From positions 44,856,440 through 44,920,439 of the forward strand of contig OX485807.1 of assembly GCA_950295325.1 (NCBI GenBank): DNA of 64,000 nt. Reading direction: 5' to 3'. The translations under genes were made by a program, and so were the position numbers. Each line of letters starts with the position of its first letter. Position 1 is the first letter of the stretch. Shown here in pieces: positions 10,036 to 58,401 of the stretch. The notes beneath the pieces were generated by a model. That model was not told where the DNA came from. It did no database searches and saw only the letters and a program-made list of their open reading frames with translations. The stretch is from Polytrichum commune. Taxonomy: Eukaryota > Streptophyta > Polytrichopsida > Polytrichales > Polytrichaceae.

Positions 10036-10081
10036 CCTAACATAAGATCTTGTAAATCCACTACATTTCAATCTTGGACAT

Positions 10082-11463: not shown

Positions 11464-11464
11464 T

Positions 11465-24047: not shown

Positions 24048-24049
24048 TG

Positions 24050-26156: not shown

Positions 26157-26224
26157 TGGGAGGCGCGCCGCAGGAGGCCCAACGGTCTTGCGGCCTGTTA
26201 TGCGCTGGACTGGAGATGCTCTAA

Positions 26225-26557
26225 GCCCAGTCTTTTTGTATGAGGCACGCCCCTTCAGGAATTTCACGATCATGAGGACTAACCTAATCCAAAGAATTCA
26301 GGAGCCCACGAAGGAATATATCCAAGTACACATTGATGAGTAAATTTGAAACATTAAACTGATCAACAAAGACCAACTTACAAAGAGCCTAATGTGCTAT
26401 CTGTCAACTTTATGTTGAGTCATTTGAAAGAGAGACAAACGTAGTATTTGTGAACCGTTTGCAACTATTAACCACATGACTAAAACTCTCCACACTTTGA
26501 GCCTATAAAGACCTAACATAAGATCTTGTAAATTCACTACATTTCAATCTTGGACAT
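26225..26557. repeat. Segmental duplication B, after the PIF insertion
   Basis: Continuation of the match to 9,406-10,081. It contains the single CCTAACAT (about 26,511-26,518) that is the unoccupied site of the MITE at 9698-10,035. No gene here. Confidence 0.85.
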
Positions 26558-27937: not shown

Positions 27938-28071
27938 TACACTAAATATCCCAATTAGTGAGGGTGGGCTAATAAGTGTGTGGGAAATTGGTGATGGTGA
28001 TACTAAATTTCTTTACACTATGAAATTAGTGCCACCCGAAGATCTGGTAGGCAATGTTCATTTTGGCATTA

Positions 28072-28100
28072 AACACTATATTCGTTAATCGGAGACTTTT
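28072..28100 (+). repeat. Left terminal inverted repeat of the 16.2-kb element
   Basis: Starts AACACTATATTCG and differs from the reversed right end at positions 14, 19 and 20 of 29. It is followed by a short inner inverted pair, GAGACTTTTGAAAGTCTC, immediately inside. Confidence 0.9.
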
Positions 28101-28473
28101 GAAAGTCTCAAAATAAAATATGCCCATAGTTTGGGATGCCAATATTGTGGGCATATGGAATATTGGGAACATCAAGAACATGACGATTTAAAAATTCGCA
28201 CGTAAAGCATATTCTTATTACTAAAAATAGAGCATTTCAATTAAAATGAAAACGTGAGTTCCATGTGGAAAATAACAATCGACTCTAAAAAATAAATGGT
28301 TTATGTCATTATAGAGTTTGGGGTGCGCATCCCATAAGTAAGGCTCTTATGAATTTGGATGGCACATCCCAAACGTATACCACAATGGAATGTGACAAGT
28401 CCACTAAATCTATTAAAAACCAAGTCTACTAAGCGTCCATGTTTTTCGCCATTAACTCCCACCTATGTTATGT
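28101..28473. other. Left subterminal region of the 16.2-kb element
   Basis: Non-coding. It contains inverted GGGATGCC/GGCACATCCC-like motifs (TTTGGGATGCC near 28,131 and GGCACATCCCAAAC near 28,360) that could be subterminal binding sites. It separates the terminal repeat from the 3' end of the DUF7869-like gene. Confidence 0.4.
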
Positions 28474-31400
28474 TTACACATCTCCATCTTCCGCTTCATA
28501 TCCATTCTCGGCGTCATTTTCTGCCGCTGCAATACGTGCCAAGTTGTCTTTGGCAAAATCTATATGTTTTTGGGGGATGGTCATTGTTTTTGTTTTGGAA
28601 CCTTTACGCGGCTTCCAAGCACAAAGTATAGTGTCTGTGTTTATCCAAACCGGTGTATACGCTGAGTCCATTGTCCACTTAAAATTCTTTTTGGTGTCCC
28701 AACCTAAATAAGTGCGTAGCACGTTTTGGTCTTTAGTGCTTGGACGACAATATTCCACCTCAATTTGACGAAAATTGGGGCTAGTTCGAATAAAATTGGG
28801 TGAAGACAATGCTTTCACCAACCAAATTGGCTTGGGATGTTCCTCATCCCCTGCTCGTACAAGGACCAAATAACCTTCATGGCAATCAACACCTACACGA
28901 AACGACGGTGCCGGTCGATTGCGGGCAGGGCCAACGTAATGCTCGTCCATTGCGAACTCTTCACGAACGTCTCCATTGCTAAAAAACATGGTGTCTGACT
29001 CGACAACCGTTAAACGGCTTTGTGGCCAAAATCCTTGTGTTAAAGTTGTACAGGTGTCGCCACCAAATGTCATTAGGGCCGAGCGAATGCGATCCCAATA
29101 CGCAATCAAAGGTTCATGAGTATCTCTAACACGTCTAGTGATGTCCTCCTCACACAACTCTTTCCAATATTCAATGAATCTGGATATGCCTTTGATGATT
29201 TCCGGCCCATTCCTCATGGGGTCGGGTTTGCAAGGCTTTGGATCCCCATCCGGAAGCAAACATTTGCCATCATTGTCTTGACGCCATACGAGTATACCAT
29301 TATCCGGGCCCCAATTAGGAGATGTGCACAAAAGCTTGAATTGCATGGCCGGGAGACCATCGTCCCTTATATAGAATCGGAATTGTTGTGCTTTGGTATG
29401 CCCCACCAAACGGTCCCCTCCCTTCAACATGTATGGCTTGATGAAGGCCTTGAAATCTGGTACTTCCTCAATCAAGTGCGGAATTACTGGCATATGGTCC
29501 AAATCCATATACGATTTCATAAGAGGTATGGTTGGAAAATCTTCTTCATGCAACTTCATGCTCCACCGTCCGAATGATGCATCAATGTCGTCGTGTGTAT
29601 GTCCCACCATCAAGAAAGACACAAACACCTCCTTGAAGATTTCTTTCGCCACGAGCAATGACCAAAAACAAAATACGTATCGACATTTGTTGTCCTTCGC
29701 ACAATTATCAAGTTGAGCGTGGAGAGTTGGAGGCAATGGTTTTGCACAAATGGGTTCTCCGGGTGGTTCTGGCAATGACGACATACAAACCTCCTTCCCC
29801 GCAAGCACTGCCTCATAAAGGGATGTGGTTCCACAACCATCAAAAAGTGCACGGGAAGAATGTACCGATGGCTTCTCAAGATCGCGCAAGAGTTTTGCAA
29901 ATGAACCCACCGTGTGGTTAGCATCCCCAGGGTAAAAATCCAAACCATAATGGGCATACTTTACGTCCCCATGGCCGTGGGCAATCATACCTGGAAAAAA
30001 CAAACGATGCGTGACCAAAATAATCAAATAACCACTAAACGGATGTATGAAGTTGGACATTTGCCAAACACACCCAAGAAAATTGGATAGACTTTAAACA
30101 CGTAGTTGTGATTTCATACAAACCTGTGACAGCTACGGGCAATTTGAAGAGACCATCCGTGGCCTTTATTTTGCGTGCATAACAAGGGCATGCGGTTTTG
30201 GCGTGGTCCATTTTATCATGGATGACTGTTAGAACCTCTGTGGGCCTCATTATGGATAGAGCACGATTCTTATAGTAATTTTGACGGTGTGCCTCTTGAT
30301 TGTTGACATGCTCAATATATTTTTTCTGGTGTCTGGAATGAGATTCAGTGCCTATGGGGTGGGCGTCTCGAAGACCTTTGTATTTTTCACACGTCGTACA
30401 TCTAGCGAACTTGTCCCCGGGTCTTTTCAAAATGTATTCCGCAAACTGCTGGTTTTTAATCACACTCAACTTAGACAAAGAAATGGGCCCACATCCCGCT
30501 ATGCGACCCACTTCATTGATGTCCGTTAAGATGTTCTTCCATTTTGTGCCCGTGGGCAACACCATTTGAACAACCTTCTCCCCTGACGACAATGTCCTCG
30601 TCTTGTGGGGCATTGCATCGGCCAATGGCACTATGATGGTGGATAGTGTCGCGGACGCTTGCAGTGTAGCCTCCCTAGGTTTCTTTGTGCCCGAGTTGCC
30701 ATGAAATCGAGAGCGGCGACCCAACGATGAATACTTTCGAAACTTATAAAAGTCAGCCTTGGAGACGGCGTGGATGGTATACCACGCTGTACAACACACA
30801 TTAACATTCTCAAGTGTCACCACCTTATGCCCATGTGTATCAAGGTGCAAATTTCTATGGACCTCGAGTTTCTTAGCCGACCTCATATGAAAATCCGCAA
30901 GCCACATCTCTTGACGCAGAGACCTAATTTTCTCCCGCAGGAAAAATTGGCAACATTTCCTCGCGCAACAATCCTTGCCGAACACTAGACGGATAGATTC
31001 GTCCCCCAAAAGCCGATCCCGTCGACGCTCCTTATCTCCGCGAGGCACACGGTTTGAATCATATCTACGGAGGCCTTTGCGAGGACGTGTTTTGGCCAAC
31101 AAAGCTAATTGTGTTTGCTTATGCCGCCGCTCATGATCCCACAAACTCACTTCCTCATGTAGAACTTGACGAAGCGGCCATCGACGCAAGGAAAATCTCC
31201 ATGTCACCGGGACCTCTAGCGGAAGCAAAGAGTTCAAGATGCACACGCCAACATCATCGAGACCTAGGGCGTTGGCATCGACACAATCACGGGGATTGGA
31301 GTTTCTACATATGCCATCTACCACCGGGACACCAACCTCGTTGAATAAAACGACATCAAGGCCAACCCATTGCTCCCTCCCGAAACCGGCACACAACGGA

Positions 31401-31600
31401 ATGTCATCGTGGTCATCTCCGGAATGCAGAGATTGTTCGTGAACTTCCAAAGATTCATGGGAGGATGTATCCACAAACACCCCCCTCACGTTTGGCACAC
31501 CATTACTATCTGCCGACGGGGAAGACACTTCACATTCAGCATCGGATGACGATGCATACGTCGACAACTCCAATGAACTAACACCCACATGCAACGCCAT
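28474..31600 (-). CDS. DUF7869-like putative DDE-type transposase, two exons
   Basis: Exon 31,600-30,124 and exon 29,990-28,474 flank a 133-bp intron (30,123-29,991; donor CACAG/GTTTGT, acceptor TTTTTTCCAG). The splice keeps one frame and yields about 997 residues without stops. The N-terminal third is acidic; a Cys-rich part (Cys-Ala-Arg-Lys-Cys-Cys, Val-Cys-Cys, Cys-Thr-Thr-Cys, Cys-Pro-Cys) follows. Candidate catalytic acids are Asp in His-Asp-Lys-Met-Asp-His (about residue 462), Asp in Gln-Leu-Asp-Asn-Cys (about 587), and Asp in Gly-His-Thr-His-Asp-Asp-Ile-Asp (about 626-629), the layout of DUF7869 proteins with an RNase H-like fold. The start is chosen because ATG 31,600 follows a splice-acceptor-like CTAG, aligned with the same context in the decayed copy at 60.6 kb; an in-frame ATG at 31,654 exists. 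A transposase role is inference. Confidence 0.82.
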
Positions 31601-32330
31601 ACCACCTAGACCAACGACCAGGAAATGATCAACCCAACCACCACCGCAATGCATTCAAGAGAGGATAGAATATATGTGGAGATACATGGCCCAAAATTGA
31701 CAAACAAATTTTGGTGCACCATTGGAGAACCTCACGCACAAAGACGAACGTGCGTCCCAAAAAAACATTTTCAGCATAAGTCTAGGAGCCTCACTAATGT
31801 AAACAATACATGGACAAAGAGGAGAACAATCGTTAGTCGTCCAGGAGGGCCCTGCTGTTCGGACCAGCGCCTGTCCCCATACAACCGACGACGAAATCAT
31901 AAATCCGAGAACGCCACATTCATTTACGAACGCGCATTCGTGACCTCAATAACTTCTCCATGTGCATCCGGCGGCCTTCGAGATCCCTCATCTGAGAGCA
32001 CCCTCAGGAATATCGGTTTTGTAGGTCAAAGTACCATGTTGACTTAGGAACCTGCGCGATATATTATCACAAGAGAACACTTGTCCATACGCACAAAAGT
32101 AGTAAATCTGAAGATGATGCCTGAATCAAGTCCAACAATATTTTGAACACTGAGCACCTTCATATTGTGAATTTGATTATGTTGACTTTTGCTTACCTAC
32201 CCATTCACGAACGGACGTTCGTAAATGGGTGCGACCCTGTGTTCACATCCTTTACGGACGAGCGATGAGCATATTTTTCTTGCTATTCTGTGTTCGTATA
32301 TAACTGTCATACTGATGTGTATAAATGAAG
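31601..32330. promoter_or_regulatory. 5' region of the DUF7869-like gene with first palindromes
   Basis: Upstream of the minus-strand gene. It holds one near-perfect palindrome (31,923-31,943, imperfect right arm), one with a single arm mismatch (32,204-32,225), and partial half-sites near 31,745 and 32,245. A 140-codon plus-strand open frame at 31,625-32,047 is antisense to the gene start and palindrome-containing; I do not call it. A 5' untranslated exon is likely here because the start codon follows a splice-acceptor-like sequence. Confidence 0.45.
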
Positions 32331-32925
32331 ATGCGTTGCTGGATGCGTAGACAATAATGACATGTATTTACGAACGCATGTTCGTAAATTACCGACCATC
32401 AGGTACCAATAGACACGGGTCAAATATGTATGTATGAACCTCGAAGGCATATTTACGAACGCACGTTCGTAAATAAATGCCATGGATGATGTGCATGTGA
32501 CTATCCATGAGTAGCTCAATCCAAAACATGCTCTCCTGTGGGATTTACGAACGCACGTTCGTAAATTACCGACCATCAGGTACCAATAGATACGGGTCAA
32601 ATATGTATGTATGATCCTCGAAGGCATATTTACGAACGCACGTTCGTAAATAATTGCCATGGATTATGTGCATGTGACTATCCATGAGTAGCTCAATCCA
32701 AAACATGCTCTCATGTGGGATTTACGAACGCACGTTCGTAAATTACCGACCATCAGGTACCAATAGATAAGGATCAAATATGTCTGCATGGTCCTCGAAG
32801 GCATATTTACGAACGCACGTTCGTAAATAACTGACATGGATTACGTGCATGTGACTATCCATATGAGTAGCTCAATCCAGAACATGCTCTCATGTGGGAT
32901 TTATGAACGCACGTTCGTAAATCCT
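32330..32925. repeat. 177-bp tandem repeat with two palindromes per unit
   Basis: Just over three units. The 22-bp palindrome starts at 32,367, 32,452, 32,544, 32,629, 32,721, 32,806 and 32,900, so spacings alternate 85 and about 92 bp for a period of 177-179 bp. Inter-palindrome sequences are well conserved (ACCGACCATCAGGTACCAAT in one arm, CATGTGACTATCCATGAGTA in the other). Nearly all palindromes here have CA as the two central bases. The array sits 0.7-1.3 kb upstream of the DUF7869-like gene. Confidence 0.93.
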
Positions 32926-32973
32926 TGCCATGTACAGGTCCGAATCATTTGTCTAAACCTGAAGCTCCTCATC

Positions 32974-32995
32974 TTTACGAACGTGCGTTCGTAAA
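32974..32995. repeat. Perfect 22-bp palindrome
   Basis: TTTACGAACG, centre TG, CGTTCGTAAA. It lies just beyond the 177-bp array and marks the end of the first palindrome cluster; none is seen from here to 36,305. Confidence 0.9.
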
Positions 32996-32999
32996 GTTC

Positions 33000-35140
33000 C
33001 GGTATTTACGGCGGTATATGCGGTAGGTACAGCCTGTACTGTACCTGGTTGGTGTAGGGTTGGCGCACACGAAATGGCTTGAGCGCGTTCAGTGAGGTCT
33101 GTAGAGCGCACACTTGCATGTGCCGCTGAAAAGAGCTTTGTTGTGGGGGGAAGAGCTTTAAGTACTTCACCCCGCTGGTTCAAAATCCCTTGGATGCTCT
33201 TTAAAAAACGGATTCCCGCCACCTTCTTTGACCTAACAATCTCCCATTCCATCCATGCGGAATTATATAAATAGCACTGTCATGTATGGAACATGCCTTG
33301 CATGCACGCCAAAATATTGAAAATATATAAATCGGTTGCACATCTTAGTTGTGACCAAGGTCTCATCGAAATATATGTATATACATATATATATATCTAT
33401 ATCTATATATACACATAATGTCTAAATATGGAGATGGTTAACATTGAATATTTAATGATTTGCGACTAAGATATGAAGTCCAAGTTAATTGACAATTGAT
33501 GCCTAATAAAGTTATGAATGTCTAAGTCATAGATATATAAAAATATATCTATACATATATACACATACACACACACACACACAATGAGGTCAGAGTGGCT
33601 AAGAACATGTTGCGGACGCCCCTAAAATTATAGGTATCATATGTTTCACATCAAAAAATGACTGTAATATGGTCACCAAGTGCATGAATACAACTAAAAA
33701 ATCGGGTTAATCCATAATGGCTTGCACTAGGGTAGATTGAGGACATTATGAACTAATTATACCTAATAATATATGTAAGTTAGGTCTTCTTTCAAATGGT
33801 ATCTAGGTGTGAAAATAAGGAATTAAAATGGCATGAGTAGGAAGGATTAATCAATTTGTAATGCTGCATAGTATGATAGCGTAATGATCATTGAGACTTG
33901 AAACCATACTAGCTACCGTAACGTTGAATCATAGTTACAATTATTATGTGTTTGACGTCCTATTGTAAATTGAATTTTCCTCCACTTGTTGTAAGGGTAC
34001 GGATACACATTGGTTAAATGTTTATTAGATCAATGGTGATATTTATAGTAAAATGCATTATTCGATTGTTAGTTTAAGTTGACACATGATTAAATGAGTT
34101 GAGGTCCTATTGGAAATAGACTTTTAGGGTTTGGGGAAATGCACTATTAATTTAGAATGGTGCATACAATAGTATGTACTTACAATTAATATATGTTTTG
34201 CATCCTATGAGAAGGATGTGCATCATCATAGCTTAAAGTGTTGATATAAATTGAAGTCTTAAGACATGCATGTTATTATAATAAGATCGTGGATTGTGTG
34301 ATGAAATTTCACTCAAAACTATTAAGGTGAAAGAGGGAATATTTGAAATTTCACTTATCACCTAAACCAAAGTTTTATCTCAAATCTATTAATTTGGAAT
34401 GTGAAAATGACAATTGGCATCATTATCAATTATTATAGTTGTTATGAACGGAATTAAGCATTCTCCATCCAACCAACATTGGTAGACCAATTTGACCTGC
34501 CCTCAAACAACAACATGGCCACATATAAGATAGGTTGGTAAGATAAAAAGATGCAGGGATGTAGGATTTAGGGTTTGCGGTTAGGGTTTAGGGTTAGGGT
34601 TAGGGTTTGGGGGTAGGGTTTAGGGGTTTAGGGTTTGTGAAAGTTGTGTATGTGGTATTTGGGTTTATGTTTTAGATTGTTACTAGGATACATTACACAC
34701 ACAAACAATATTGACTCCTCAAAAACCCTTGTAATTGCACTAACTTCATTCATCGCAAGCTCGTAGTTGATGCTAGCAAAATAGTTGACCACTCCAGAAA
34801 TGCATTAGTTCAAGCTAACACCTAATATTGGAACTTGAATTGACATCCTATCATATAGAAACTCTCCGCAATCTCATATTATGAATTCCTTTTTGCATGT
34901 AATATTTGTTTGAGGAACCATCGAATTAATTGAAAGATATCTAGCTCTTACATAAACTATATTTTAAAACACTATATACATATCTTGGGGGTGGATTCTA
35001 CATTGACAACCTAGGAAATGACATGCATTGTTTATTACGAATTAACTGAGCATACTTTTCTAAAATATGTTTACAAGGAATCCAAATGTAGAGGTACTAA
35101 GGAAATAAAACGAGTAAAATTCATGTATTTGAACTAAGCT
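33000..35140. other. Spacer between the divergent element genes
   Basis: AT-rich and without a supported gene. It is homologous, in inverse orientation, to about 55.0-59.3 kb in the older copy; for example 34,240-34,500 matches about 55,815-56,110 and 33,100-33,350 matches about 59,030-59,290. It contains AT/TATC and CA microsatellites (33,371-33,418 and 33,540-33,585) and the telomere-like tract at 34.57 kb. Position 33,345-33,347 is the unoccupied TAA site of the composite MITE at 58,402-59,029. Confidence 0.75.
34566..34638. repeat. Interstitial telomere-like repeat
   Basis: About ten imperfect units of TTTAGGG and TTAGGG in one direction. The homologous spacer of the older copy (near 55,770-55,790, read in reverse) passes directly from the left flank to the right flank without the repeat, so the tract was gained, or lost, in only one copy. 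Confidence 0.9.
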
Positions 35141-35209
35141 TTTCAAGTTAATGCCCTAAACGCGTCCATTACATATAAATATGTCAAAGCATGAGTATAA
35201 CATGAAGGG

Positions 35210-35470
35210 TTCCAATATACAACCATGTCCCATCTCCCATCGCATCCCATCCCATCCCATCCCTTCCCATCACCTCCCATACCATCCCATCCCATCTCCC
35301 TCCCAGCCCTAGCCAGTGGAGCTGTGCCACGTGGCATGTGCTGGGAAACCCTAGCGGCGCAGCTACCTCCCTGCGCCCCTTCCTCTTCTCCTCATTTGTC
35401 ATTTCGAGGAGAGGAGGAGCGGAGCGCTTAGAGAGCGAAGCTCTTGCTTTTTTTAGTCTTGAAGTTTTAA
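35210..35470 (+). promoter_or_regulatory. Probable promoter of the four-exon gene
   Basis: A pyrimidine-rich CCCATC repeat (about 35,227-35,302) precedes the perfect G-box-type palindrome GCCACGTGGC (35,326-35,335) and the telo-box AAACCCTA (35,346-35,353), followed by a C/T-rich and GAGGAG-rich tract. These motifs are known from plant promoters; their use here is inference. The block is GC-rich in otherwise AT-rich sequence and faces the plus-strand gene. Confidence 0.45.
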
Positions 35471-35474
35471 ATTA

Positions 35475-35860
35475 GCTTTGTTGCAAGTTTTGAGAGATTT
35501 CAGATTGAGAGTTTGTGTGAAAGCTTTTGAGTTTGTGAAAGCTTTCATTGTGAAAGCTTGTGAGTTTGTAAAAGCTTTCAGTGTGAGAGTTTGTGAGTTT
35601 CAAAAGCTTGAGAGCTTGAGTAGGAAAGCTTCAGAGTTTCGGATTGAGAGCTTGAGGGTGATCTTTAAAAGCTTGAGAGTTTAAGGAAGCTTCAGAGTTG
35701 AAGCTTGAGAGTTTAGGGAAGCTTCAGAAGTGAAGCTTGAGAGTTTAGGGAAGCTTCAGAAGTGAAGCTTGAGAGCTTAGGGAAGCTTGAGAGTTAAGGG
35801 TTTGCTTAAGAGTTCAGAAGCTTGAGAGCTACAAGCTTGTGAGTTTTGTGTACATGAGAG
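35475..35860. repeat. AAGCTT-rich degenerate tandem repeat in the 5' leader
   Basis: Many variants of GAAGCTTGAGAGTTTAGGGA. From about 35,690 to 35,800 there is a clear 32-bp unit, AAGCTTGAGAGTTTAGGG followed by AAGCTTCAGAAGTG. It lies between the promoter-like block and the palindrome-rich intron, so it is probably transcribed as 5' untranslated leader. Confidence 0.75.
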
Positions 35861-36229
35861 TATACTAGGGTTTGTATATAAGCTGTGAATGCTTGAGGTC
35901 TGTATTAGAGAGTTAACTGAGTGTGCATTTGAAAGGCAATTGAGTGTGCAGTTGTGAGGATTTCTGGGATTTTCAGAAAGAGAAGAAGCAGGATTTGAAG
36001 TGTGCAGCAATTCAATGTAATTTCTTATCCTTTCCAACTCCTCTCACATTCTGAAAATGTTGCTTCTTGAATTCAATTTGTTTTGTTACATGCAATGTGA
36101 ATTATCACTTTCTTCTTCATGTTTCATTCTCAATCTCATTCTGCATCTCAATTGCGTTCTGATTCAAGATTTGCATCATTCTGACCAAGATCTGCAGACA
36201 TGGCTGCAAGCAGGTTGCTAATAAATGAG

Positions 36230-36965
36230 ACATATACATATATATATGTATTCGTATATGTACGAATACGTATATGTACGGACAGGGGATCCCAAAACCA
36301 TCACATTTACGAACGCTCGTTCGTAAATGGACATACACTGCATACCCACCTCCATTTACGAACGCTCGTTCGTAAATGGACATACACTGCATACCGAACC
36401 TCCATTTACGAACGTGCGTTCGTAAATACGCACTCCACGTTCATTGGAATGCTTTATATTTACGAACGCACGTTCGTAAATATACGCCAAATATCACTCA
36501 GATGGAACCTTAACTTTAATATGAACCTGTCCGAATATCTAAAGAACAAATATAAAATTGCGAACACCAATAAAACAACTCACATGTACTTACGAAAACT
36601 AAATCAACCAAATGTCCGAAAAGATAGACCAAATGGACATACTTACGAACGCGCGTTCGTAAACAAAACCAAATCTAGAAAACCTATATCTTTTACGAAC
36701 GATCGTTCGTAAAAATAACCAAATATATTGCAAATACATTCATGACGAGTAGTCTCTTTGATCTTCATATCTTTTACGAACGCTCGTTCGTAAACTCAAT
36801 ACTAAAAATTTATATTATCTTGCAACCCCTCATTTACGAACGAACGTTCGTAAATATAATTACATCAATTGCAAAGACGCATTAACAATGCGCAGTATGT
36901 GGGATATGCATGTCATTTACGAACGTTCGTTCGTAAAGTCACTAATTATTTATATTCTGTTGCAG
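36230..36965 (+). repeat. Second palindrome cluster, in the probable 5' intron
   Basis: Palindromes of the 22-bp family start at 36,305, 36,355, 36,405, 36,459, 36,642, 36,692, 36,773, 36,833 and 36,915. The first three are about 50 bp apart, with the intervening GGACATACACTGCATACC kept between the first pairs. Centres vary (CT, TG, CA, CG, AT, AA, TT) while both arms stay nearly invariant. The stretch ends in TTCTGTTGCAG directly before the ATG at 36,966, which looks like a splice acceptor, so I infer that most of the cluster is intronic. The last palindrome and the acceptor region have a diverged counterpart near 54,171-54,192. Confidence 0.85.
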
Positions 36966-38260
36966 ATGGCAAGATCAAGCAGAAGCGCCATTGAGATGTT
37001 CGCGGTGAAGGTCGATCGCCTCCAAGAGTCGGTGTTAGACGACAACGGCAACGACAACTATGTCCCCAAGGAAGACTTCATGGGGGAGTGGACGGCACTG
37101 CTAGAGAAGATCGGGGACGGCCTCTTCTGCATGCGCTTCACCTACGAGCTGGAGACCAAATCGGACCAGCCTGAACAGTGGGTTCAAATGAAGACGTGGG
37201 AGATAGAGTTCATAGAGGCCCAGGGGGAGTATGTAATTCTGGACATGAAGAACAAGAAGGATCATATCAACCTCTTGTTGCATTTCCAGAAACATACCTT
37301 CTCCTACCAATACGCCACCAACAACGTAGTGGAAGATGCCAAACACTTCGACCTGGACGCACTCTTCTCGAAGTATGCCTTGAGCCCATACTGGACGGCA
37401 AGGAAATTGACAGCCCTCGCCTTGAACATCTCGAAGTACAACAGTGTGGTCACCGAGGCCAACAAGAAAAAGAAGAGCCCCAGGAAACCATCCACATCAA
37501 GGGCAGGAGGATCAAGAAGTGCACCCAGGCCTGTGCCTTCCGCGAGTAGGGCGACGGAGGGCCCCAGCAGGCATTCCACGCCATCCAAGAGGACAAGGGA
37601 AGAGATGGAGAAATCGGTAGTCACAGATATCGCGGAGGTGAGCTCGCCGGTATTGATGCCTACCCCCTTGAAAAAGGGCGAGAACCCAGACGCTGTGAAG
37701 GCCACCATAATCCTTCGAGACTTCAACAACTACTCGAAGGATTGCTGGCCTATGAGACGCCACTTCACATTCAACGTGGACTGCTTCAAGTGCGAGAAGT
37801 CCCCCAACAAGTAGGTGGTTCGGTCTCGCGAGAGCGGTGGTGTGAAGTGGCAGATCAACAATCTCATGAACAACGTCAAGTGGGATAGGCAGACCGTCTG
37901 CGTCATGCCGAAGGGGCTGACATCCCGTCCGACGGAGAAGGACTGGCCACGGATCCAGAATGGGGAGTTCTGGATCATAGACGACCAACACAGCTTGGAG
38001 GCGTCCCAGATAATCCTCAAGGACGACAACTTCTAGCACGAGCTGAAGGCAGATTTGCGCTATTGGAAGGCGTTCATGGTGTGGTCGGATGACTGGGACA
38101 AGCTGCGGAAGATTTCCACCTTCCTCAACTCCGGCAACAAGATCAAGGCATTCGAGGCGTCGTGGGCTGCCAACATAGTGGCTGCAAGAGACGTCTGGGT
38201 CGCCCACGGGTGCCCCCCCAAGGAAAGGGAGAATGCCAAGACCCGTCTCCCCAATGGAAG

Positions 38261-38375
38261 GTGAGTTTACGAACGTTTGTTCGTAAAGTTGGGCGCATTT
38301 CTAGTTCTTTTACATTCAAATTTACGAACGTGCGTTCGTATTGTGTGCATCACTGACTTTTGTTTTTCTCTTCAG
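38261..38375 (+). other. Intron 1 of the phosphatase gene, with two palindromes
   Basis: GTGAGT donor and TTCTCTTCAG acceptor. One palindrome starts five bases after the donor (38,266-38,287, one arm changed at a single base) and another is at 38,321-38,340. Palindromes thus fill over a third of this 115-bp intron. Confidence 0.85.
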
Positions 38376-39700
38376 GCTTTTTGCGATGCGATGGTGGACA
38401 AGTTCTCCTCCATCGATATGAAGTCCACAACAACCAAGTCTGTCCTGGAGCTCAAGGGCGAGCTCCGCCTCATCTGTTGCACCAGGGACACTTAGGACTT
38501 GTGGACCCAGTTTTTTGATGACACAGCTCGGGAGATCTTGTCAACCCCGACACCGAGGAAAAATATAGCGCAGAAAAGACCGGGGAGGCCCCTCCACTGC
38601 TGAGGGAGTTCTTTAGGTCCCTTCAAGGGTTGACGGAGTCCGAGTTGCAGAGGTGCGCAGTGCATCTTCTTGGGAACACAGTGGGTAGAACCATACCCTA
38701 CCCCAAGATATTTTTGAAGAGGCCAAGGCACAAGCCCGGCACGTATTCCATAAAGGAATGGTGCGACCATTGCAAGATGAAGACGGCGGCAATGAGGGAA
38801 TTGAGTGCCCTCATACCCGAGTACGCACTCTTCCTGGCCGACAGGGACGTGAATTGGGCCAGTTGGAAGATGTTGAAGGTCGACTACAACATCTCGGGAG
38901 CCTCAATGCGTTGCCTTGTCAAGGAGCACGCCTCCATTTTGAAGCAGAAGGGGAACAAGAGGACAAAGAAAACCGAGACGGATCCCCAGGAGGTGGAGCA
39001 ATACAAAAGGTTTTTGGCGCGGAAGAGGTTGGCCACATTCGAGGGAGTGGCCAGATTTTGTGTGGTGACAGCCGGCGTAGAGAGAACAACTTTCTCTAAG
39101 TGGGACGGCACCATCAGCAGGTCCGAGGTTAGGGAGGACCGACGGGGGTGCCCATTTGCCATGATCGATTTCAGGGGGATCCCGGGTGCGTCGAGGCAGG
39201 GGGGGAAGGACATGCCATTCTACAACCCCTTCATGACCAAGTTCAAGGAGCACAAGTCGCCGGACATGAGGGAGCCTCACGTTTGGCTGTGGATAGTCGA
39301 GCAGGAGAAGCTCTCTGCTGTAGTCGACCTGTACGAGAAGTTGATCAAATTTGAGTACAACATCTTCCACAACACTTACATGCCCGCCAAGGCGGAAGGG
39401 ATCGTGGCCATCAACGAGGCCAGGGGAAACAAACAGGTGGGGGCGGTCAGCCTCGTCTTCTTGACGTACAACGCGCTTCGGAATGGGCGAGCCCCTGTCA
39501 GGGCGAATACTGCGTTCAAGAAGATCTACAGCATCCCCCATTCCCCTCCCAAGGATCTGCTGCAGGAGATCTTGTACACTATCTTCCCGGCGCAGGAACT
39601 CAGGTTGAAGTTCTACGTTTCCGTGTTGCAAAGCATGGCAATAAGCGGAGAGACTGTATACAACGTCTGTGGAGGCATCAAATTCATGTACGCTGCAATG

Positions 39701-39925
39701 GTAAGCTCTCCAACTAATATTTACGAACGCTCGTTCGTAAAGTTCACCTCAACTTGTTTGGTTTTCATTAAAATTTGCATTGTTTCTCGTCGTTGATGTT
39801 TACGAACGCTCGTTCATAAAGTTCACCTCAACTTGTTTGATTTTCATTAAAACTTGCATTGTTTCTCGTCGTTGATGTTTACGAATGCACGTTCGTATAT
39901 TCTAACGTATTTGCTTGGATCTCAG
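39701..39925 (+). repeat. Intron 2 with a 79-bp tandem repeat and three palindromes
   Basis: GTAAGC donor and GATCTCAG acceptor. Palindromes start at 39,720, 39,799 and 39,878, exactly 79 bp apart, with AGTTCACCTCAACTTGTTTG and GCATTGTTTCTCGTCGTTGA conserved between them. Later copies carry one or two arm changes. Confidence 0.9.
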
Positions 39926-40926
39926 ATGCTGGGGCTGGTCGTCAACAGCTTCATTGACGCCATCGACGAGGAGGACTTCCAGGTGCACAGGGCGAAGGCC
40001 TCCACGATGGACCTGGAGGACATGTCCCTCCCGAGGACGGACATCAACATGCCCGTCGACGAGGGCATGCCCGCCATGGAGACGGACGACGACGAGCCCG
40101 CGCCCGCGCCCTCCTACAACGTCGAGGCGATCCTCCGATCCTTGGACGTCACGCCTCTGCGAATTTTGGGGCCGTTGGGAAACCCATCCGACGTGCAGGG
40201 GACTCCGGGTGGATACACGGGGTCGTCCGCGGGGACAACCCAAGATGTCCTCCCCGCGAGAACGTCTGGAGCGGAGGCATTCGGCACTCCAGGGGGGTGC
40301 TCGACATCGGTGTCGCCCAGGCCAGTCGTGGTTCCCAAGATGGAGAACCTCGACCTTCTGGACCAACGCTCCCGCCCGTCGTTGGACCACTTCCGCAACA
40401 CTAGGCGGAAGATGAAGAAGACCCCCTACGTGGAGCTGCCTCCGGGGGCAATCATCGAGGTCTCCGACGAGGACGAGGGAGATATGGAGATAATGGTCGA
40501 GCTGGGGGTCGACTTCGACAAAAACAAGCGGGTCAAGGAGGAGGCCCTCTCCGTCGCCGAGCTTAACGCCAAGCTCGAGCAGAAGATGAAGGAGGACATG
40601 GCGAAGGCTGCTGAGGAGAATGCGAAGAAGATGAAAGCAATTCAGGAGGAGCTAAGGCAATCCAACGAGAAGACGGACGCCATCCTCGCCATGCTCAACA
40701 AGATGCAGAGCTTCTCAGCGCCCCCCCAGCCGGCTTACCCCTTCCCTGGAGGATACCCATCGCAATACCCCCTGCCAGGCCAGTACCCCCCGCAGGGCCA
40801 TTTCCCAGGAGGACCATCACACCACTCCGCGCCCCACCCTACGCCTGTTGGGACTCCTCCGCCCCCAGAAGTTCCCTCGACTGCCTCCCACGATGCTGTC
40901 GCGGCGGCCATCCAGGAGGACGAAGA

Positions 40927-40948
40927 TTTACGAACGCGCGTTCGTGAA
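40927..40948. repeat. Palindrome inside coding exon 3
   Basis: TTTACGAACG, centre CG, CGTTCGTGAA, one arm change. It is read in frame as Leu-Arg-Thr-Arg-Val-Arg within the phosphatase gene, after an acidic stretch. Confidence 0.9.
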
Positions 40949-41308
40949 TCTTCAGGTCCTCCAGTCCTCACCCCTCCCCCTTCAAGGGTAGGACTGCCCT
41001 CAGACACTGATGCGTCGTCTTTCACCGTCGTCCCCAGGGTAGTAGACAGACTTGGCAATGACTCTGCGCGACACACTGACATGGTCATTGTGGAGGACAC
41101 GCAGGGGAGCCCCAATGACGCACCAGGAGTGCATGGGATGGACGTGGAAGACACCCATGCGGCGTGGATGGAGGATGTCAGGATGGACGCGCTCGACCTG
41201 GGCGCCGAGGAAGAAGACGCGCTGCGCATCCAGGCGACACAGGCGTCTCAGTCGGAGCGTGAGGCCGACGCCATGGAAATGGAGGCGGCTGCGGCTGCGG
41301 CTGTGGAG

Positions 41309-41330
41309 GTTACGAACGCGCGTTCGTTAT
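41309..41330. repeat. Second palindrome inside coding exon 3
   Basis: GTTACGAACG, centre CG, CGTTCGTTAT. It is read in frame as Val-Thr-Asn-Ala-Arg-Ser-Leu after an Ala-rich stretch. The reading frame differs from that used at 40,927. Confidence 0.88.
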
Positions 41331-41389
41331 TCGTTGAGGAGGGACCTGCTGCTCGGTCCAGCGCCGCTTCCCCTCCCCCCGATGACGAG

Positions 41390-42004
41390 GTAAATCTCCT
41401 CTGAGAATACCATTTTTTACGAACGCGCGTTCGTAACCTCACTAACATCGCGGTGTTTTTCTCTTCATCGACACCCTTGGCCCACGCGAGCCCTCTTCAG
41501 CGACCCCCCTTATGGACGACCAGTTTTGTAGGACACGACATCATTTTGCCTTAGGAAAATGTGATAGACTATCACGTGAGAAATGTAAATATTCAACGGA
41601 TTAATATATAGACCCATGTTATCTGCATCGCATTTCTTCAAATTCTTTGCCCTCGACCCCTTCTCGTATATTGTGGATGTTGATGCGATTATGTTCATTC
41701 TTGTGTATCCACCTCATTCACGAACGCTCGTTCGTAAAAGGGTGCGACCCCCTGTCCACCTCCTTCACGAACGACCGCTCGTAAATGTACGTGTAGCCTC
41801 GCTCACGAACGAGCGCTCGTAAATGATGCGCACCGCCCCCGCAGCCTTCATTTACGAACGCTCGTTCGCAAGTGTGCCCTTGAGCACATTTTCCTTGCAC
41901 TCTCCTCACTTCCTCGTCTTTCCCCATAATGCATCGTCTTCATTTTCTACGCAAAATTTCATTATTGGATCATAGCATTAAACTAGTCGCGTTGTTCATC
42001 ACAG
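41390..42004 (+). repeat. Intron 3 with five palindromes
   Basis: GTAAAT donor and CATCACAG acceptor. Palindromes or close variants start at about 41,416, 41,717, 41,764, 41,802 and 41,850. The four in the second half are spaced 38-48 bp and several have TTC ACG or CTC ACG in place of TTT ACG in the left arm. Confidence 0.88.
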
Positions 42005-42907
42005 GACCCCCCGGAGATAGGTCGCAACCCCTCGACCAATGGACCTCCCACCCGGAACAAACCTTTCATCGTTTTTGACCTCAACGGGGTGTTGTGTCAC
42101 ACCCAACACATCCCAAGGGTCCCCACGCGTCCCTTCCGTCACCCTGACGAAAGGGACTACGACGGCGAGCTCGACACCCTCATTAACCGCAAGGCTGTCC
42201 GCTCCCGTCCCGGCTTGCGTGACTTCCTTCGCGAGGTGGTCGAGTTCGCTCACGTCATTGTGTGGAGCTCCATGGTCATGGAGAACACGGAGCCCATCGT
42301 CCACTTCTTGTTCCGTGATCTCCCGAGCCCTTGCCTCGTCCTCGGCCAAGAGGACTGCGACGAGCTGCTCGACGAGAAAGGTCAACCGGTGCCCAAGTTT
42401 GGCGGTCGGGGCGGAGGACAACAGTTCCTCAAGGTCCTCCGCTCCAAACTCTGGCGAGGCGTCCCCCGTCTGCAAGGGACGCCGCACGGGTGGTGGCCGA
42501 CTCCAGAGAACACCGTCCTCATCGACGACAGCCCCACCAAGAGCGTCTTGAACCCCCCGGGGAACGTCATCTTCCCGGACACTTGGACCGGCGATAGGCA
42601 AGACACATTTTTGGTCGATAGGCTAGCCCCCTACCTTAGAAGGCTCGTGCTCCACGCCGGTAGCATCCCATTTTTTGTTAGGTCCAACCCCTTCGGCAAT
42701 GCGGCACTAAGCCCCCGCGATAATGTATTCAAGAGCATCATGAGGCTCGCCAAACTCAATAAATTGATTTGAAATGCCTCCATGTCTTTGCTTGTTATCA
42801 TGTGGTTCACATATCTAATGCTTGCTCCGTTTTTGGATGTCTTTTGTTGTTGTGATTGTTGTTGTTCTTGTTCTTGCCCATAGTCTGCCCCCATATGCGA
42901 CGCCCCT

Positions 42908-43827
42908 ATGGTCGACGGCTCTTCCCGTCCCCTCTCACCCCCCGCATCCCCTTCCCGCGACGTCACGGACTTCCAAATGCCATCCCTCTACCACTTCTCG
43001 GCGGTCGACGCGGCCTCGGCCGTGGATTACTCCCGCGACGTCGGCATCGACGACGGCGTCGTCAACAGCCCGCCCCCAGCACTTGTCCCCCGCGCGTACG
43101 CCCCGTCGCCCTCCCCCCTCTCCAAGGAGAAACGGACGCTCATTCGTTTGGGACACCTCTCGCCCTCGAGGGACGACGCCGTCGCTCGTTGCGGGCCGAG
43201 CCGGCGTCTCCGCATGGACTTTGCCCCCGCCGACTCCGTTCCTCCCCCCGCAACGTCCTCCGCGATCGTGGGCCCTCCACGCCTCGACTCACCCCCGCCA
43301 TCCAACAGTGCAATAGTTCCATCGGCTCCCGTCGACGCCCCCCTCGTTCCCACCGTTCCCCGCATGGACGTCCCCAAAGCCAAGGTGCCCTCCTCAACCC
43401 TAAACCCCTTTCCCATTTTTGCTTTCCTTGTCTTCCGTTTGCGTGCCGTTCTCTTTACGAGCGCCCATCCCAAACCGCCCTCATTATTTTCCCCACTCCA
43501 TTCCTATTCTTATCTTCCTATGACGTTGTTTCGCAGGTGGCTACCCGCTCGCTTGGTGCCCGGCCCTCCTCCACGTCCTCCTTGGACAGCCACGCCCTCA
43601 AGGCCGCATCTTCCGAGTCCGATCGTTGTCTGGCCCTCCGGAGAAGCGCAAGACGTTCCCTTTCGCAAACGCCCTCGTATTCTACTTATAATACCACCTC
43701 GTTAAATTCGGGAGCGCGTCCTGAAACATGCAAGAACGACACATATTCCTTTCCAGGCAACACACAAGGATACAGTCGTGGGCCTGAGATTTTTAGAGCC
43801 TTGGAGGCCGCCAAAAAAAAGACTTAG
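42908..43827 (+). CDS. Ser/Pro-rich hypothetical protein, two exons
   Basis: Exon 42,908-43,384 and exon 43,537-43,827 flank a 152-bp intron (donor AAG/GTGCCC, acceptor TTTCGCAG) in phase 0, giving 255 residues. The first exon is Ser/Pro/Asp-rich without predicted fold; the second is Ser/Thr-rich with Arg-Arg-Ser-Ala-Arg-Arg and ends Ala-Ala-Lys-Lys-Lys-Thr. No domain is recognised. It lies 135 bp after the phosphatase gene on the same strand and could be its partner or a late exon of a longer transcript. A degenerate palindrome (about 43,133-43,152) falls in its first exon and a partial one (about 43,455) in its intron. Without splicing, the first exon's frame runs on to 43,705 with different residues. 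Codon choice is strongly GC-rich, as in the phosphatase gene. Confidence 0.55.
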
Positions 43828-44246
43828 CCGCCAAAAAAAAATAGTGGGTTGGACTAGTGTGACTAGAAGCGTACTAGTGGGACGGACTCCCTAAATGGGC
43901 TTAGGTGTAGAACATATTTAAGTGCTTACTTTCTATGCTATTCCAAGTTACTCAAGACATTGATGGTATTTCCATTATAATTGTATTTCAATCCCAATTA
44001 ATTCATTCAACTTCCATTCATTCTTCGCATCTTCCCTTCCATTCATAACGAGTTGTCATTTCATACGCAACTATTTTCATGTATGCCTCACATTTTTGTT
44101 CACTTTCATGACTTTATGTATAATAATAGTAGCATACCATTATACATATGGGATTTTTAGTCGTCATTACTGGTCCAATTTTGAAATGTGCATCCTTATA
44201 TAGTCTCATAATCAACAAAAAGTCTCTAATTACCGAATATAGTGTT
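43828..44246. other. Right subterminal region and right terminal inverted repeat
   Basis: Non-coding and AT-rich. The final 29 bases are the right terminal repeat, reading AAAAGTCTC then TAATTACCGAATATAGTGTT on the plus strand. A duplicated short phrase AGCCGCCAAAAAAAA occurs at about 43,809 and 43,827. Confidence 0.8.
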
Positions 44247-44250
44247 ATTA

Positions 44251-47200
44251 TTCATTGAAAATACTATTCATAATGGCATTATTCACAATATTCATACCAT
44301 TCATACCATTCATACCACCGTGAGTTTCTTCCTAATATCTAGGTTTCTCTCCATAATGGATTTCATCACTCTAGAAACAGCAAAGAACACACACTAAGTT
44401 TTTTCAACTGTATGGTAAATGAGCATGTATTCATGAATTTAGTGTCACTCAATAAAGAATTAGACCCTCACTAATTTTTAGATTGGACAAATTAGTGCAT
44501 GTTTTAGGAATTGGTAACATATGCACTAGTTGGGATAATCAGTGTAGTAGGAAACATGGTTCTTGAATGCACATCCATTTTGAGATGGGGGGTCATTAGA
44601 ACACAATATGATGGACAAGAGCCTAGTCCAATCTACATAATTCATAGATTTCACCGCAGTTCTTACTAATGTAGGGCTACAAAAACAAAGGTCTTACTCA
44701 ATTTCAAGGGGATTAGAGATCCAAGACCTTGTCCATGCTAGAGGGAGTATGCCAGGTTGGCATGAGCAATTCAGAATCCAACGTGAATCTTGAATTTCAC
44801 TCCTCCATTATAAAACTACACCTAGATATTAATAAATGTTTTAAGTAGTTGAGCATAATTCTTATAATATATTACATTACTTTTTGTTGAGTCATGTTTG
44901 TAATCAAGAGAGGAATTCAATACATCTGGGCATGGAACTTTTGACACCATATGATTAGAGCATAAATAACAAAATGTTGATTATAGGTGTGTTCAAAACT
45001 AACCCTACACTTCATCATGTTCAAACTATGTTCAATTTAGGAAATAATCTTTGGAGGTCGATTTTCAAAAATGATCACATTACCTATTTTGAATTGCACA
45101 CTCTCGAGATAAATCAATTCCATCTTGAGCAGGGGGCCGCCTTGAGGCTACATGGCAGAGAGCCAACAAGAGTGTCCGGATGGAAGTAAAATTTGAAGAA
45201 CCTGTGTTTTCTAGTCCCTTCCATAGTATGAACACCTTCACTTGGAATCATGGTAATTTATGTTACATAACATTACTCTGTTGATGAGCTATGGTCATGT
45301 GCCCCGTAGTAGATTTGAGAATAAAACCTTCGGATACTGGAATCACAAGACTGAATCTGAAGTGAAGGCGGAGTAATGTTATGCACACAAAAGATTCGCC
45401 AAACATTGGCCTGCATTCTAGTGATGATCTAGACGTGCGCCACCCGTCGGAGAAGGGAGATGAGGTTTGTACAAAGTTCATGTTGCACCCAACCTTAATA
45501 ATTTCAAGACTCGCAGGGCATGGGTTCATGATTCCTCGTCCACTCCAGCCGTTCCCAAACACGCAGCTGGAATCTCTGGAGTCACTAAACATTTCTGAAA
45601 GCGAGTGGTTCTCAGTTCGATGTGCACTACTCATCAAGCAAGGAAACACCGCATAAGCAGCCCTGACAGGCTGGGAGGAGAAATTTTCGATACTCGAATT
45701 TTAAGACAGCGCTACAATACTCGAACCAAACGCAAGAAAAACAAACGCAAGAGTGAGTGACAAACGCAAACATGTTGACACGAACCTGCTGGATGCCAAT
45801 GAATATGAATACATTACCATGATGAGGAGAAGCTGGGGGATGATGGAGATTAAAATTAGTGAAACCGTAGTTCGTCTGAATATTTTATTAAATAAAAAAC
45901 TATTCCAACTTCGGAGCCAACAAAACAGAGGATCTTGTATCTTGAGAGTCCCCTTTCTTCTTGGACACTGTTTGTAAGTTCATTACCTGAAGAGAAGGCA
46001 AACGAGGACAAGAAACCGTTCGCTCTCTTGTTTGATGATTCTCCAATCGAATGGCATGCAACCTACTTTTCACCACGCAGCTGGGACAACACCAAACCAC
46101 AAAAAAGGAAATGAACAATGAAGATAGGTTGAGAGGATTGCACCTACATTCAGTGTTCTGCAAATCCTGCTACATACAAGGCCGACGAATTTGTTCGATG
46201 GTTGCTGCTGGACTCAAACTAACCACTTAACTTACAACCACCTAATCCAGAGCAAATGTCCAATGCCCACAAGAATATTAGAATTGGTACGGTGAATAAG
46301 AATATAGAGAATATAGTTTTTCGATGCGCAAATAAAAATAGATTATAATTCCGATGCGCGAGGCACCGGAATGGGAAGGAAATCGGTTGGAGCTCAGGTG
46401 ACCCTGCTAACACCGCTCCTTCTAAAACCATAAACCCATTCCCCACCTTTCAAGAGTTGTAAGTTACACAGACCGATTCATCCCGAGTGACTATGACGGA
46501 CACAGGAAAGCAGCTATCACTTTCTATCTCTACCTCGACACTCCTGAGATGAATCATGTGCATCTAGTGAGGGGATCCGCCTCGTTGGCGGAGAGCCAGC
46601 ACTTCAGAGTGCCCGGAAGAAATTAAATTATGAAGAACCTCCGTTTTCGAGCTCCTTCCAGTCAAGTACACCGCCTTTATTGGGAAACATTGTCATTATG
46701 TAGCAACAAAAAAATCAGCAAACAATCGCCTGCATCCTCGTGATGTTCTACTAATGCACAACTTTGTGCTGGAAAAACGTGAATCAAGCCAAGAAAACAG
46801 AGGATCCTCCAATTTCTCGAGTTGGCTCAAACACGCCATGCCAAACACTACTTGTAAATTCATTCCCTGAAGACGACACTGAAAACGAATACAAGAAATC
46901 GCTCACTCTCTCGTTTGATTATTCTTCACCCTGGTGAACGTAATTCCTAACACACAGCTGAAAGAAAACACCAGAAACAAAATACCGAAACAAATTAAGA
47001 CCACACCGGAAGCAAAAGGCGTGCAACACCAGAAATTAACACACCATTGGGCAAGGAAGATAGTTTCAAAGGATCGCACCTGGAATTACAGTTGCACTAT
47101 CCCGGCTAGCTCAGCGTCTGCTTGATCGTTTGAATTGTGCTGCAAATCCTGCTCATACAAGGCCGACGAATTCGCCCGGTGGTAGCTGCTGGGCTCAAAC

Positions 47201-47640
47201 TAACCACTTAACTTACAACCACCTAATCCAGAGCGAATGTCCAATGCTCACAAGAATATTAGAATTGGTACGGTGAATAAGAATATAGTTTTTCGATGCG
47301 CAAATTAAAACCACAGCGGAAACAAATTAAGACCACACCGGAAGCAAAAGGCATGCAACACCAGAAATTAACACACCATTGAGCAAGGAAGATAGTTTCA
47401 AACGATCGCACCTGGAATCAGAGTGGCACTATCCCAGCTCAGCGTCTGCTTGATCGTTTGATGAATTGTGCTTCCGTTTGTGCTTCCTTCAAAGTGACTC
47501 CTCCAACTTGCTCAGCGTATGAGGCAATGAGACTTGCGAGAGTAGAGGACGCAACCTTCGCTACAATCTAATAATGCATCACACATGAATTCGCTACTTC
47601 ATCAGCAGAAGTAGTTGGTGTCCACCGAGTCTATGGCCGG
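44251..47640. repeat. Segmental duplication B, after the giant insertion
   Basis: Collinear with 11,600-14,330, interrupted by a B-only block at 45,137-45,656 (short CCGC at both edges, single CCGC in A, so a deletion in A is likely) and by extra copies of the gene-like family at 46.5-46.9 and 47.3-47.6 kb. Several plus-strand and minus-strand open frames below 130 codons occur; none is preserved between A and B except as fragments. The fold-back element of A is absent, leaving one CCCCAC at about 46,438. Confidence 0.75.
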
Positions 47641-47910
47641 TGATCGTCTTTAAGGGCCCCCATAGCTGCCCGCCCTGCTCCGCTTCTGGCTTCCAACTTT
47701 GTCTGAACATGGTCAACTTATTCCAACTTCCAACTTCCAACTTCCAACATCCAACTTCCAAATATGTCTGTACATAATTATTAATTCAGCCGATTATCCA
47801 TCGTTCCAGGGACCCGCAACGGCCCAGATTTATCGTCCACGAGTCCTTACATAAAAGGGCTTTCCCAGTTCCTTTCGGATACTTGTTGCCAACTTCTAGT
47901 GGTGCTTTTA

Positions 47911-48201
47911 GGATCTGCCTAAAAACCCCCATCGAGCGTGGCTCGGAGGCTAGGTTCGGGAGGGGGTGGCAGGGTTGGGGTAAAACTTGCCCCCTATTTT
48001 TTTAATTGGGTGGGGCCTTACTTAATCTCATAGGGGGCTTCCTAGAGTAATTTGGGGCCGCAGAACCCAAATTTAGCAAAACAAAAACCAAAAAAATTCC
48101 CCAAGGGGCCAAAACGGGAAGGGCCAGAAAAATGAACCCCACCGAACCTGGCCTCCGAGCCTGACAGCTGCAACGCTCGTCGGGGGTATTTAGGGAGCCC
48201 C
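47911..48201. mobile_element. Mutator-like MITE with 9-bp TSD
   Basis: A 291-bp element flanked by the exact 9-bp repeat GTGCTTTTA (47,902-47,910 and 48,202-48,210). Imperfect inverted ends share CCTAAAAACCCCC / CCTAAATACCCCC, GACGAGCG-like and GGCTCGGAGGC blocks over about 50 bp. Length and 9-bp duplication fit a non-autonomous Mutator-like element. No coding capacity. Confidence 0.85.
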
Positions 48202-48503
48202 GTGCTTTTATTCATGTGACATATAGTCTATAGATTCCTCTCAAATGATCAGTAATTCTCCTGAAGTATAGACTAGGACTAACGCACTCCCACTCACTTG
48301 AAACTGGGGTTGACACATGTCAAATGTTTGTATATTATCATCGGTCTATCGTCGATAATGGCTGCGGCAATAAATTTATTGGCTCTGTCTGTAGGACGGA
48401 GACTATGCATCAACTTCTTTGTTTTAAGAGCACTTTGTGTTCACACTTGGACGTTACTTGTTCTTGTTATATTTGGTCCACTTTATTTAATGTGGATGTT
48501 AAC

Positions 48504-48592
48504 TATATATATATATATATATATCTTTGTGTGTGTGTGTATATATATATATATGTGTATATGTATATGTATATATGTATATATATATAACA
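48504..48592. repeat. TA/GT microsatellite
   Basis: A mixed run of TA, GT and TATG repeats. Short open frames rich in Tyr-Ile or Cys-Val here come from the repeat. Confidence 0.95.
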
Positions 48593-54650: not shown

Positions 54651-54659
54651 TGGCTGCGT

Positions 54660-58400: not shown

Positions 58401-58401
58401 A

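Follow-up and report, generated by a model that had tools for sequence, protein, structure and literature searches.

In a 64,000-nucleotide stretch of the Polytrichum commune genome (contig OX485807.1, positions 44,856,440 to 44,920,439; hereafter, the window), a 22-bp palindrome, TTTACGAACG-NN-CGTTCGTAAA, recurs 31 times within a single transposon, is absent from the window outside this element and a second, decayed copy of it, and is retained as a two-fold DNA motif in relatives of the element. We propose that these palindromes would form an array of binding sites for an element-specific, sequence-specific dimeric DNA-binding protein, a dimer through which the element could recognize its own noncoding DNA upstream of its presumed transposase gene and in the leader and introns of a second gene. 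The likeliest binder would be the predicted product of that second gene, in which two open reading frame (ORF) families, ORF1 and ORF2, are combined with a region resembling a coiled coil and with a CTD-phosphatase-like domain; the likeliest purpose would be to oppose host silencing and keep the element transcribed, as VANC proteins do on VANDAL elements. Taken together as one reading, the dimeric sites, this binder, and the antisilencing role have, in our estimation, about an even chance of being correct.

The palindrome array and its confinement

Searching the window with the pattern TTTACGAACGNNCGTTCGTAAA and allowing up to three mismatches returned 36 matches, against none in each of 100 dinucleotide shuffles. 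Of these, 31 lie at 31,923–41,872 (15 of them exact), in agreement with the roughly 30 copies across 31.9–41.9 kb that an earlier note on this DNA had described, and the other five belong to a second, inverted, and diverged copy of the element (54.2–54.7 and 59.6 kb). Arm positions 2, 4, 6, 7, 8, 10, 16, and 17 are identical in all 31 sites, while ten different dinucleotides occupy the center (CA in nine sites, CT in seven, CG in five, TG in three, TT in two, and GA, AT, AA, AC, and AG in one each), which bears out the earlier description of near-invariant arms around a free center. The flanks hold little information past a few bases (23 sites, with 8 tandem-repeat copies set aside). Viewed by eye only, they revealed no common flanking duplication, and small mobile palindromes were considered on no other basis.

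Noncoding DNA contains 29 of the 31 sites: the leader and introns of the second gene account for 19 (nine in the leader intron, two in intron 2, three in intron 3, and five in intron 4) and the stretch upstream of the DUF7869 gene for ten. The remaining two, at 40,927 and 41,309, are in the coding sequence of exon 4, bringing the total for the second gene to 21. Satellites, introns, leader, and coding exons had all been named earlier as locations, and this list holds except that coding exons contribute just these two sites. Part of the copies are borne on tandem units of 177, 79, and 49 bp, and these arrays look as if the sites had been multiplied by tandem duplication. The features concerned are as follows.

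28,072–44,246: whole element, 16,175 bp, interrupting an older repeat
28,477–31,654, minus strand: DUF7869 gene (PF25273, E 8.1e-39), two exons at about 31,654–30,119 and 29,991–28,480, start codon uncertain
31,923–32,995: ten palindromes 5' of the DUF7869 gene, some of them in a tandem array of 177-bp units that hold two each (pattern search)
36,216–36,965, plus strand: leader intron with nine palindromes (36,306–36,937), left border uncertain, acceptor TTGCAG before the ATG at 36,966
36,966–38,260, plus strand: exon 2 (ORF1 family), broken in this copy (alignment with homologue P0049, 93%)
38,261–38,375, plus strand: intron 2 with two palindromes, the first abutting the splice donor (from junctions)
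38,376–39,700, plus strand: exon 3 (ORF2 family, without known domain), broken in this copy (from homologues)
39,701–39,925, plus strand: intron 3 with three palindromes in a 79-bp tandem repeat (from junctions)
39,926–41,389, plus strand: exon 4, low-complexity, with the two coding palindromes (488-codon open frame, phase 0 at both ends)
41,390–42,004, plus strand: intron 4 with five palindromes (41,416–41,872; from junctions)
42,005–42,772, plus strand: exon 5, NIF/FCP-type phosphatase domain (PF03031, E 3.3e-16), in frame with exon 4
50,890–60,807, minus strand: second copy, diverged, incomplete, and inverted, with 13 decayed palindromes at 54.17–54.65 and 59.40–60.40 kb (self-comparison)

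The 33.8 kb of the window outside both copies (1–28,071 and 44,247–49,929) contain no palindrome at up to six mismatches, although this DNA consists largely of repeats and is a poor guide to host genes. Within the element, the region from 28,072 to 31,900, which includes the DUF7869 gene, has none at up to five mismatches (a single one at six mismatches lies at 31,741), and 33,000–36,250 has none at up to six. All three absences (from the DUF7869 gene body, from 33.0–36.3 kb, and from the window beyond the element copies) are as the earlier note had them. Its assignment of the palindromes to one element is likewise retained, but this element extends beyond 31.9–41.9 kb, to 28,072–44,246; no palindrome at up to five mismatches occurs in its first 3.85 kb or in its last 2.37 kb. 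The exact palindrome had no match in viral contigs and occurs in two stretches of bacterial and archaeal genome contigs, which we take as chance, and the full palindrome as written was not found among the literature matches listed for its half-sites.

This distribution bears on whether the palindromes might be read by a host protein (a transcription factor or a protein of chromatin), the element having gathered the sites as an enhancer or insulator. Promoter and intron positions would suit such a factor, and palindromes in general suit many dimeric plant factors; however, there is the lack of matches in the largely repetitive 33.8 kb outside the copies, and the symmetric arm changes found in a subgroup of relatives (see below) fit a coevolving element protein better. 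We consider a host factor unlikely.

The second copy, whose 13 palindromes were counted at up to five mismatches, is largely collinear with the element from 60,807 down to 53,492, matching at 67–76% in blocks of at least 100 bp. Its palindrome-bearing stretches align to the first copy mostly at the palindrome alone, the exceptions being 62- and 97-bp blocks near 60.4 and 59.4 kb. The ratio of observed to expected CpG is 0.94 in the element, 0.59–0.63 in the surroundings, and 0.54 in the second copy, and deamination-type changes affect 25 of 104 palindrome CpG cells in the second copy (plus four other changes) versus 6 of 248 in the first. This pattern fits an old copy that was methylated and a new copy that is young or unmethylated. 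The second copy also contains a 1.6-kb tandem duplication (50,890–54,014, 96% identical) with ORF1 remnants.

Retention of the palindrome in relatives

Relatives of exon 3 (48 ORF2 proteins) and exon 2 (31 ORF1 proteins) were compared, with the 120 listed DUF7869 proteins as a control. Many of the 79 exon-2 and exon-3 relatives are open frames that continue past the exon border into what is intron sequence in the window, and there the palindrome can be read in three frames, as FTNxRS, LRTxVRK, or YERxFV[N/K]. Exact spellings occur in 16 of the 48 ORF2 proteins, 8 of the 31 ORF1 proteins, and none of the 120 listed DUF7869 proteins (shuffled-protein averages of 0, 0, and 0.035). With up to one residue mismatch, these counts become 26, 13, and 0, or 39 of 79 relatives and 58 places overall, with 17, 21, and 20 in the respective reading frames; column-permuted versions of the motif matched on average 0.44 of 48, 0.17 of 31, and 0.62 of 120 listed proteins, with maxima of 8, 4, and 8. 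Scanning the proteins de novo for palindromes compatible with their codons (100 real versus 80 shuffled windows for ORF2, 90 versus 30 for ORF1, and 284 versus 227 for DUF7869) proved too permissive to serve as evidence, and we rely on the specific palindrome instead.

Most of the spellings are situated where introns would begin. Automated placement put 51 of the 58 into tails beyond the exon end, and three of the seven left unplaced were later assigned to tails as well; the remaining four, in P0075 and P0077, precede the exon start, as judged by eye. For 52 of the 79 proteins an exon end could be recognized, the other 27 being set aside; tails of 10 residues or more are present in 43 of these 52, and 34 of the 43 contain a palindrome spelling. 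Among the other nine, P0021, P0030, and P0032 carry symmetric variants, and the tail of P0045 repeats VSVARPK or VWVARPK, which we would guess to encode the form TTTCGGTCG-NN-CGACCGAAA.

Nineteen exon-3 relatives have their first motif starting within about eight residues of the exon end (they were selected for having the motif, and some are closely related). Their residues between donor and motif, up to four in number, are on average only 10.6% identical over 171 pairs, and the motif is kept in differing frames. Variation in the arms can also be symmetric: as inferred from codons, LRPRGRK (P0030 and P0032) would combine A8→C with T15→G, and FTDARP (P0021 and P0028, the latter of which additionally has the standard form) would combine A7→G with T16→C, each preserving the two-fold symmetry. 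Because the palindrome is kept in different frames while adjoining residues are scrambled, and because both arms have changed together, it looks to be selected as two-fold DNA.

A two-fold, element-owned site with a 2-bp spacer is thus well supported, given its fixed arms and free center, its restriction, as far as the window extends, to copies of the element, its retention in relatives with scrambled spacer residues, and some symmetric arm changes. The earlier note had described the pattern as what a homodimer binding site would be expected to show; the combination of a fixed two-fold sequence and a free 2-bp center leads us to infer that a symmetric dimer would be its reader.

In intron 2 (38,266) and intron 3 (39,720), the first palindrome is located at the splice donor or no more than about 20 nt away from it, and so it is in relatives; this placement may be an ascertainment effect, since read-through reveals mostly the starts of introns. 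It also figures in the proposal that the palindrome works at the RNA level, as a hairpin within introns and leaders that controls splicing, stability, or small RNAs, a proposal that gains from the capacity of palindromes to fold as RNA and from donor-proximal first sites in both the window and its relatives. Yet the innermost pair, 10/13, would have to close an impossible 2-nt loop, and since these positions cannot pair and are still among the best kept (G10 in 31 of 31 sites and C13 in 29), a hairpin becomes less likely. Moreover, the letters themselves are kept, beyond what pairing would demand; the element has no Rfam match; and the position near donors is partly ascertainment. We therefore regard an RNA role as very unlikely.

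The two genes and the candidate binder

Our model of the second gene, its splicing included, is a prediction from splice-like junctions and homologues. Introns 3 and 4 lie between codons in the window, as does intron 2, judging from homologues. Alignment with P0049 reveals two in-frame stops in exon 2, which by its length and by eye also contains a frameshift near its end. Exon 3 has one stop and one frameshift close to its start. Exon 4 has a weak match to HAUS-augmin3 (E 1.4e-4, below the cutoff of that model), and part of it looks coiled-coil-like by eye, which would suit a dimer. Phosphatases of the exon 5 type usually have the motif DxDx(T/V); the first catalytic motif here is DLNGVL, in which Asn replaces the second Asp, such that the predicted activity is uncertain. 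A literature search combining NIF factor, transposon, terminal inverted repeat, and plant found nothing.

Domain searches offered little to identify the DNA-binding part. Their lowest E value, 2.2e-4 for PADLOC PDLC01828 (CARF2--CARF_HEPN) in 2 of 17 ORF1 members, is not convincing. A tblastn comparison of the ORF1 C-terminal domain with phages returned two records at E 3, which were disregarded, and although 26 stretches of viral contigs fit a pattern for ORF2 relatives, none was confirmed. ORF1 homologues end in IIDGQHS...LNSGNK, which we take to resemble DGQHR/ParB-Srx-type motifs, and residues 330–351 of P0053 (QNGEFYIIDGQHSLDASKILLK) touch PF20188 (E 0.15, 1 of 17 ORF1 members). Such features would agree with an ORF1 protein that loads at the palindromes and spreads along the element in the manner of ParB on parS; against this, the domain searches gave no significant match to ParB-like models or solved structures (no ParB-family profile comparison was made), and we find loading and spreading highly improbable.

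The product of the DUF7869 gene is a probable DDD transposase. A protein search with it returned 284 relatives, of which 120 were listed and 32 of those aligned: HDKxDH is nearly invariant across the 32, and the aspartates of QxDN and GHTHDDID (D105, D145, and D147 of P0080) are invariant in all of them. Homologues P0086, P0095, P0100, and P0120 cover both exons. A profile comparison with PDB sequences gave a best E value of 1.6, a literature search for DUF7869 found nothing, and 53 stretches of viral contigs fit a pattern for its relatives, with none confirmed. The palindromes could conceivably be sites of this transposase, serving synapsis or internal binding, inasmuch as they belong to the same element and ten of them lie just upstream of its gene. 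But transposase sites lie at or near element ends, and here the terminal 3.85 and 2.37 kb lack the palindrome; in addition, none of the 120 listed DUF7869 proteins has a read-through motif, which is a weak argument, as their elements may differ. This assignment seems to us quite improbable.

Returning to a dimeric second-gene product that counters silencing, we note several observations that weigh against it. The second gene is broken in the window, so this copy would need the protein of another copy. No significant match to a DNA-binding domain was found for ORF1 or ORF2 in Pfam, NCBIfam, or PDB sequences (nor, for ORF1 alone, in PHROGs or PADLOC), helix-turn-helix matches remaining subthreshold (PF02270, E 0.14 in 2 of 17 ORF1 members; PF23671, E 0.094 in 1 of 5 proteins). 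Five tails (P0018, P0026, P0027, P0033, and P0046) are without a recognizable motif, P0022 has a one-sided arm change, and the DNA of relatives is inferred from the codons of predicted proteins, some of which are near-duplicates. The DUF7869 control is imperfect, since its proteins may for the most part belong to elements that lack the second gene, and low CpG decay in the element may reflect only a young insertion. Finally, VANC motifs vary considerably between related elements, whereas the palindrome is more stable (over ~50–93% protein identity).

Element class and comparison with known systems

An older repeat, unbroken at 10,036–12,486, is interrupted by the element, and in self-comparison its halves rejoin across 28,071/44,247. 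Together with a duplicated ATTA and inverted ends, this empty site sets the element at exactly 28,072–44,246, and it has both end features of a transposon:

28,068–28,071: target-site duplication ATTA, left (junction inspection)
44,247–44,250: target-site duplication ATTA, right (junction inspection)
28,072–28,100, plus strand: left terminal inverted repeat, 29 bp, 26 of 29 positions identical to the right end
44,218–44,246, minus strand: right terminal inverted repeat, 29 bp, pairing with the left end

The ends (28,072–28,084 and 44,234–44,246) read AACACTATATTCG, with CACTA beginning two bases in. CACTA/Spm elements have ends that start with CACTA, a 3-bp duplication, and subterminal motif repeats. 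We rejected membership in this group: the 4-bp ATTA duplication sits outside AA/TT, the 3-bp flanks do not match if the element is cut at CACTA, and the palindrome, being absent from the terminal 3.85 and 2.37 kb, does not supply subterminal repeats. Sola elements have 4-bp duplications and a DDD transposase, and what agrees with them here is only the 4-bp duplication and the DDD-like pattern.

Other features of the element include a telomere-like TTTAGGG/TTAGGG array (34,562–34,636) within the palindrome-free 33–36.2 kb and, close to it, (TCCCA)n (35,235–35,309) and AAGCTT-rich tandem repeats (35,515–35,828). A direct repeat joins 31,830–32,264 to 41,324–41,777 (66% over 464 bp), and the DNA upstream of the DUF7869 gene resembles a duplicated exon 4/intron 4 segment, palindromes included. 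Elsewhere in the window are a PIF/Harbinger-like gene pair (22,662–26,297; a PF04827 transposase on the plus strand, E 4.7e-88, and an ORF with a NAM-associated domain on the minus strand, E 1.2e-12) and an inverted repeat (13,303–13,774; 226-nt arms, 94% complementary, 20 nt between) that is a possible hairpin source of small RNA.

Named DUF7869 relatives among those listed include proteins of the mosses Ceratodon purpureus and Physcomitrium patens (40–47% identity), whose PF25273 proteins belong to the same presumed transposase family. The second gene and the palindrome, in contrast, have been seen solely in relatives of this element, and no ORF1 or ORF2 match has an organism name.

Among transposon proteins that act on their own element, TnpA of maize Spm acts on repeated motifs, and its sites are subterminal, whereas the terminal 3.85 and 2.37 kb of the present element are free of palindromes. 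TnpA is element encoded and activates its element, in correlation with demethylation (PMC10398659). Antisilencing proteins encoded by transposons are known in a few plant elements, those named being VANDAL, Spm, and MuDR (PMC10398659). The motifs bound by VANC21 lie upstream of VANA21, in the introns of VANB21 and VANC21, and in tandem repeats (PMC5735166), and VANC brings about a loss of methylation across the VANDAL element (PMC5735166, PMC10398659).

The earlier note had held that no known plant repeat class explains the palindrome. This remains true insofar as the motif differs and no identified domain is common to both systems, but the layout is closely similar to that of the self-recognition motifs in VANDAL elements of Arabidopsis (PMC5735166): VANDAL21 and our element alike have many short motifs in noncoding DNA, found both upstream of the transposase gene and within accessory-gene introns and partly arranged in tandem. 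The VANC21 motif is the 9-bp YAGTATTAY, arrayed in one orientation (PMC5735166, PMC10398659), as opposed to a 22-bp palindrome. VANDAL elements encode a MULE transposase, whereas ours has a DUF7869 match and no match to a MULE model, and the DUF1985 and DUF287 domains of VANC have no Pfam match in the second-gene ORFs or the homologues scanned. With transposase, domains, and motif all different, membership in the VANDAL/VANC family is rejected. The two systems also differ in what is established, since binding, hypomethylation, and genomic rarity of the motif have been demonstrated for VANDAL, and our element is known here from sequence alone. As for coevolution of motif and protein, a feature of VANDAL, the codon-derived arm variants are symmetric in four relatives and one-sided in a fifth.

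The anatomical evidence for a VANDAL-like mode of action is good, and the function itself is predicted by analogy. A more specific version, in which a second antisilencing system would have evolved independently, its phosphatase-fused dimer docking on palindromes in its own introns and upstream of the transposase gene, modifying the transcribing polymerase, and thereby marking element DNA against silencing, is a possibility that we rate as rather doubtful. An unrelated family with the VANDAL layout but another motif architecture and unrelated proteins would suggest that the strategy evolved more than once. Because the palindrome can be traced across relatives at ~50–93% protein identity, motif–protein coevolution would be testable over larger distances, and the phosphatase-like domain would suggest a route via the polymerase tail, one that does not appear in the portions of the VANC literature at hand.

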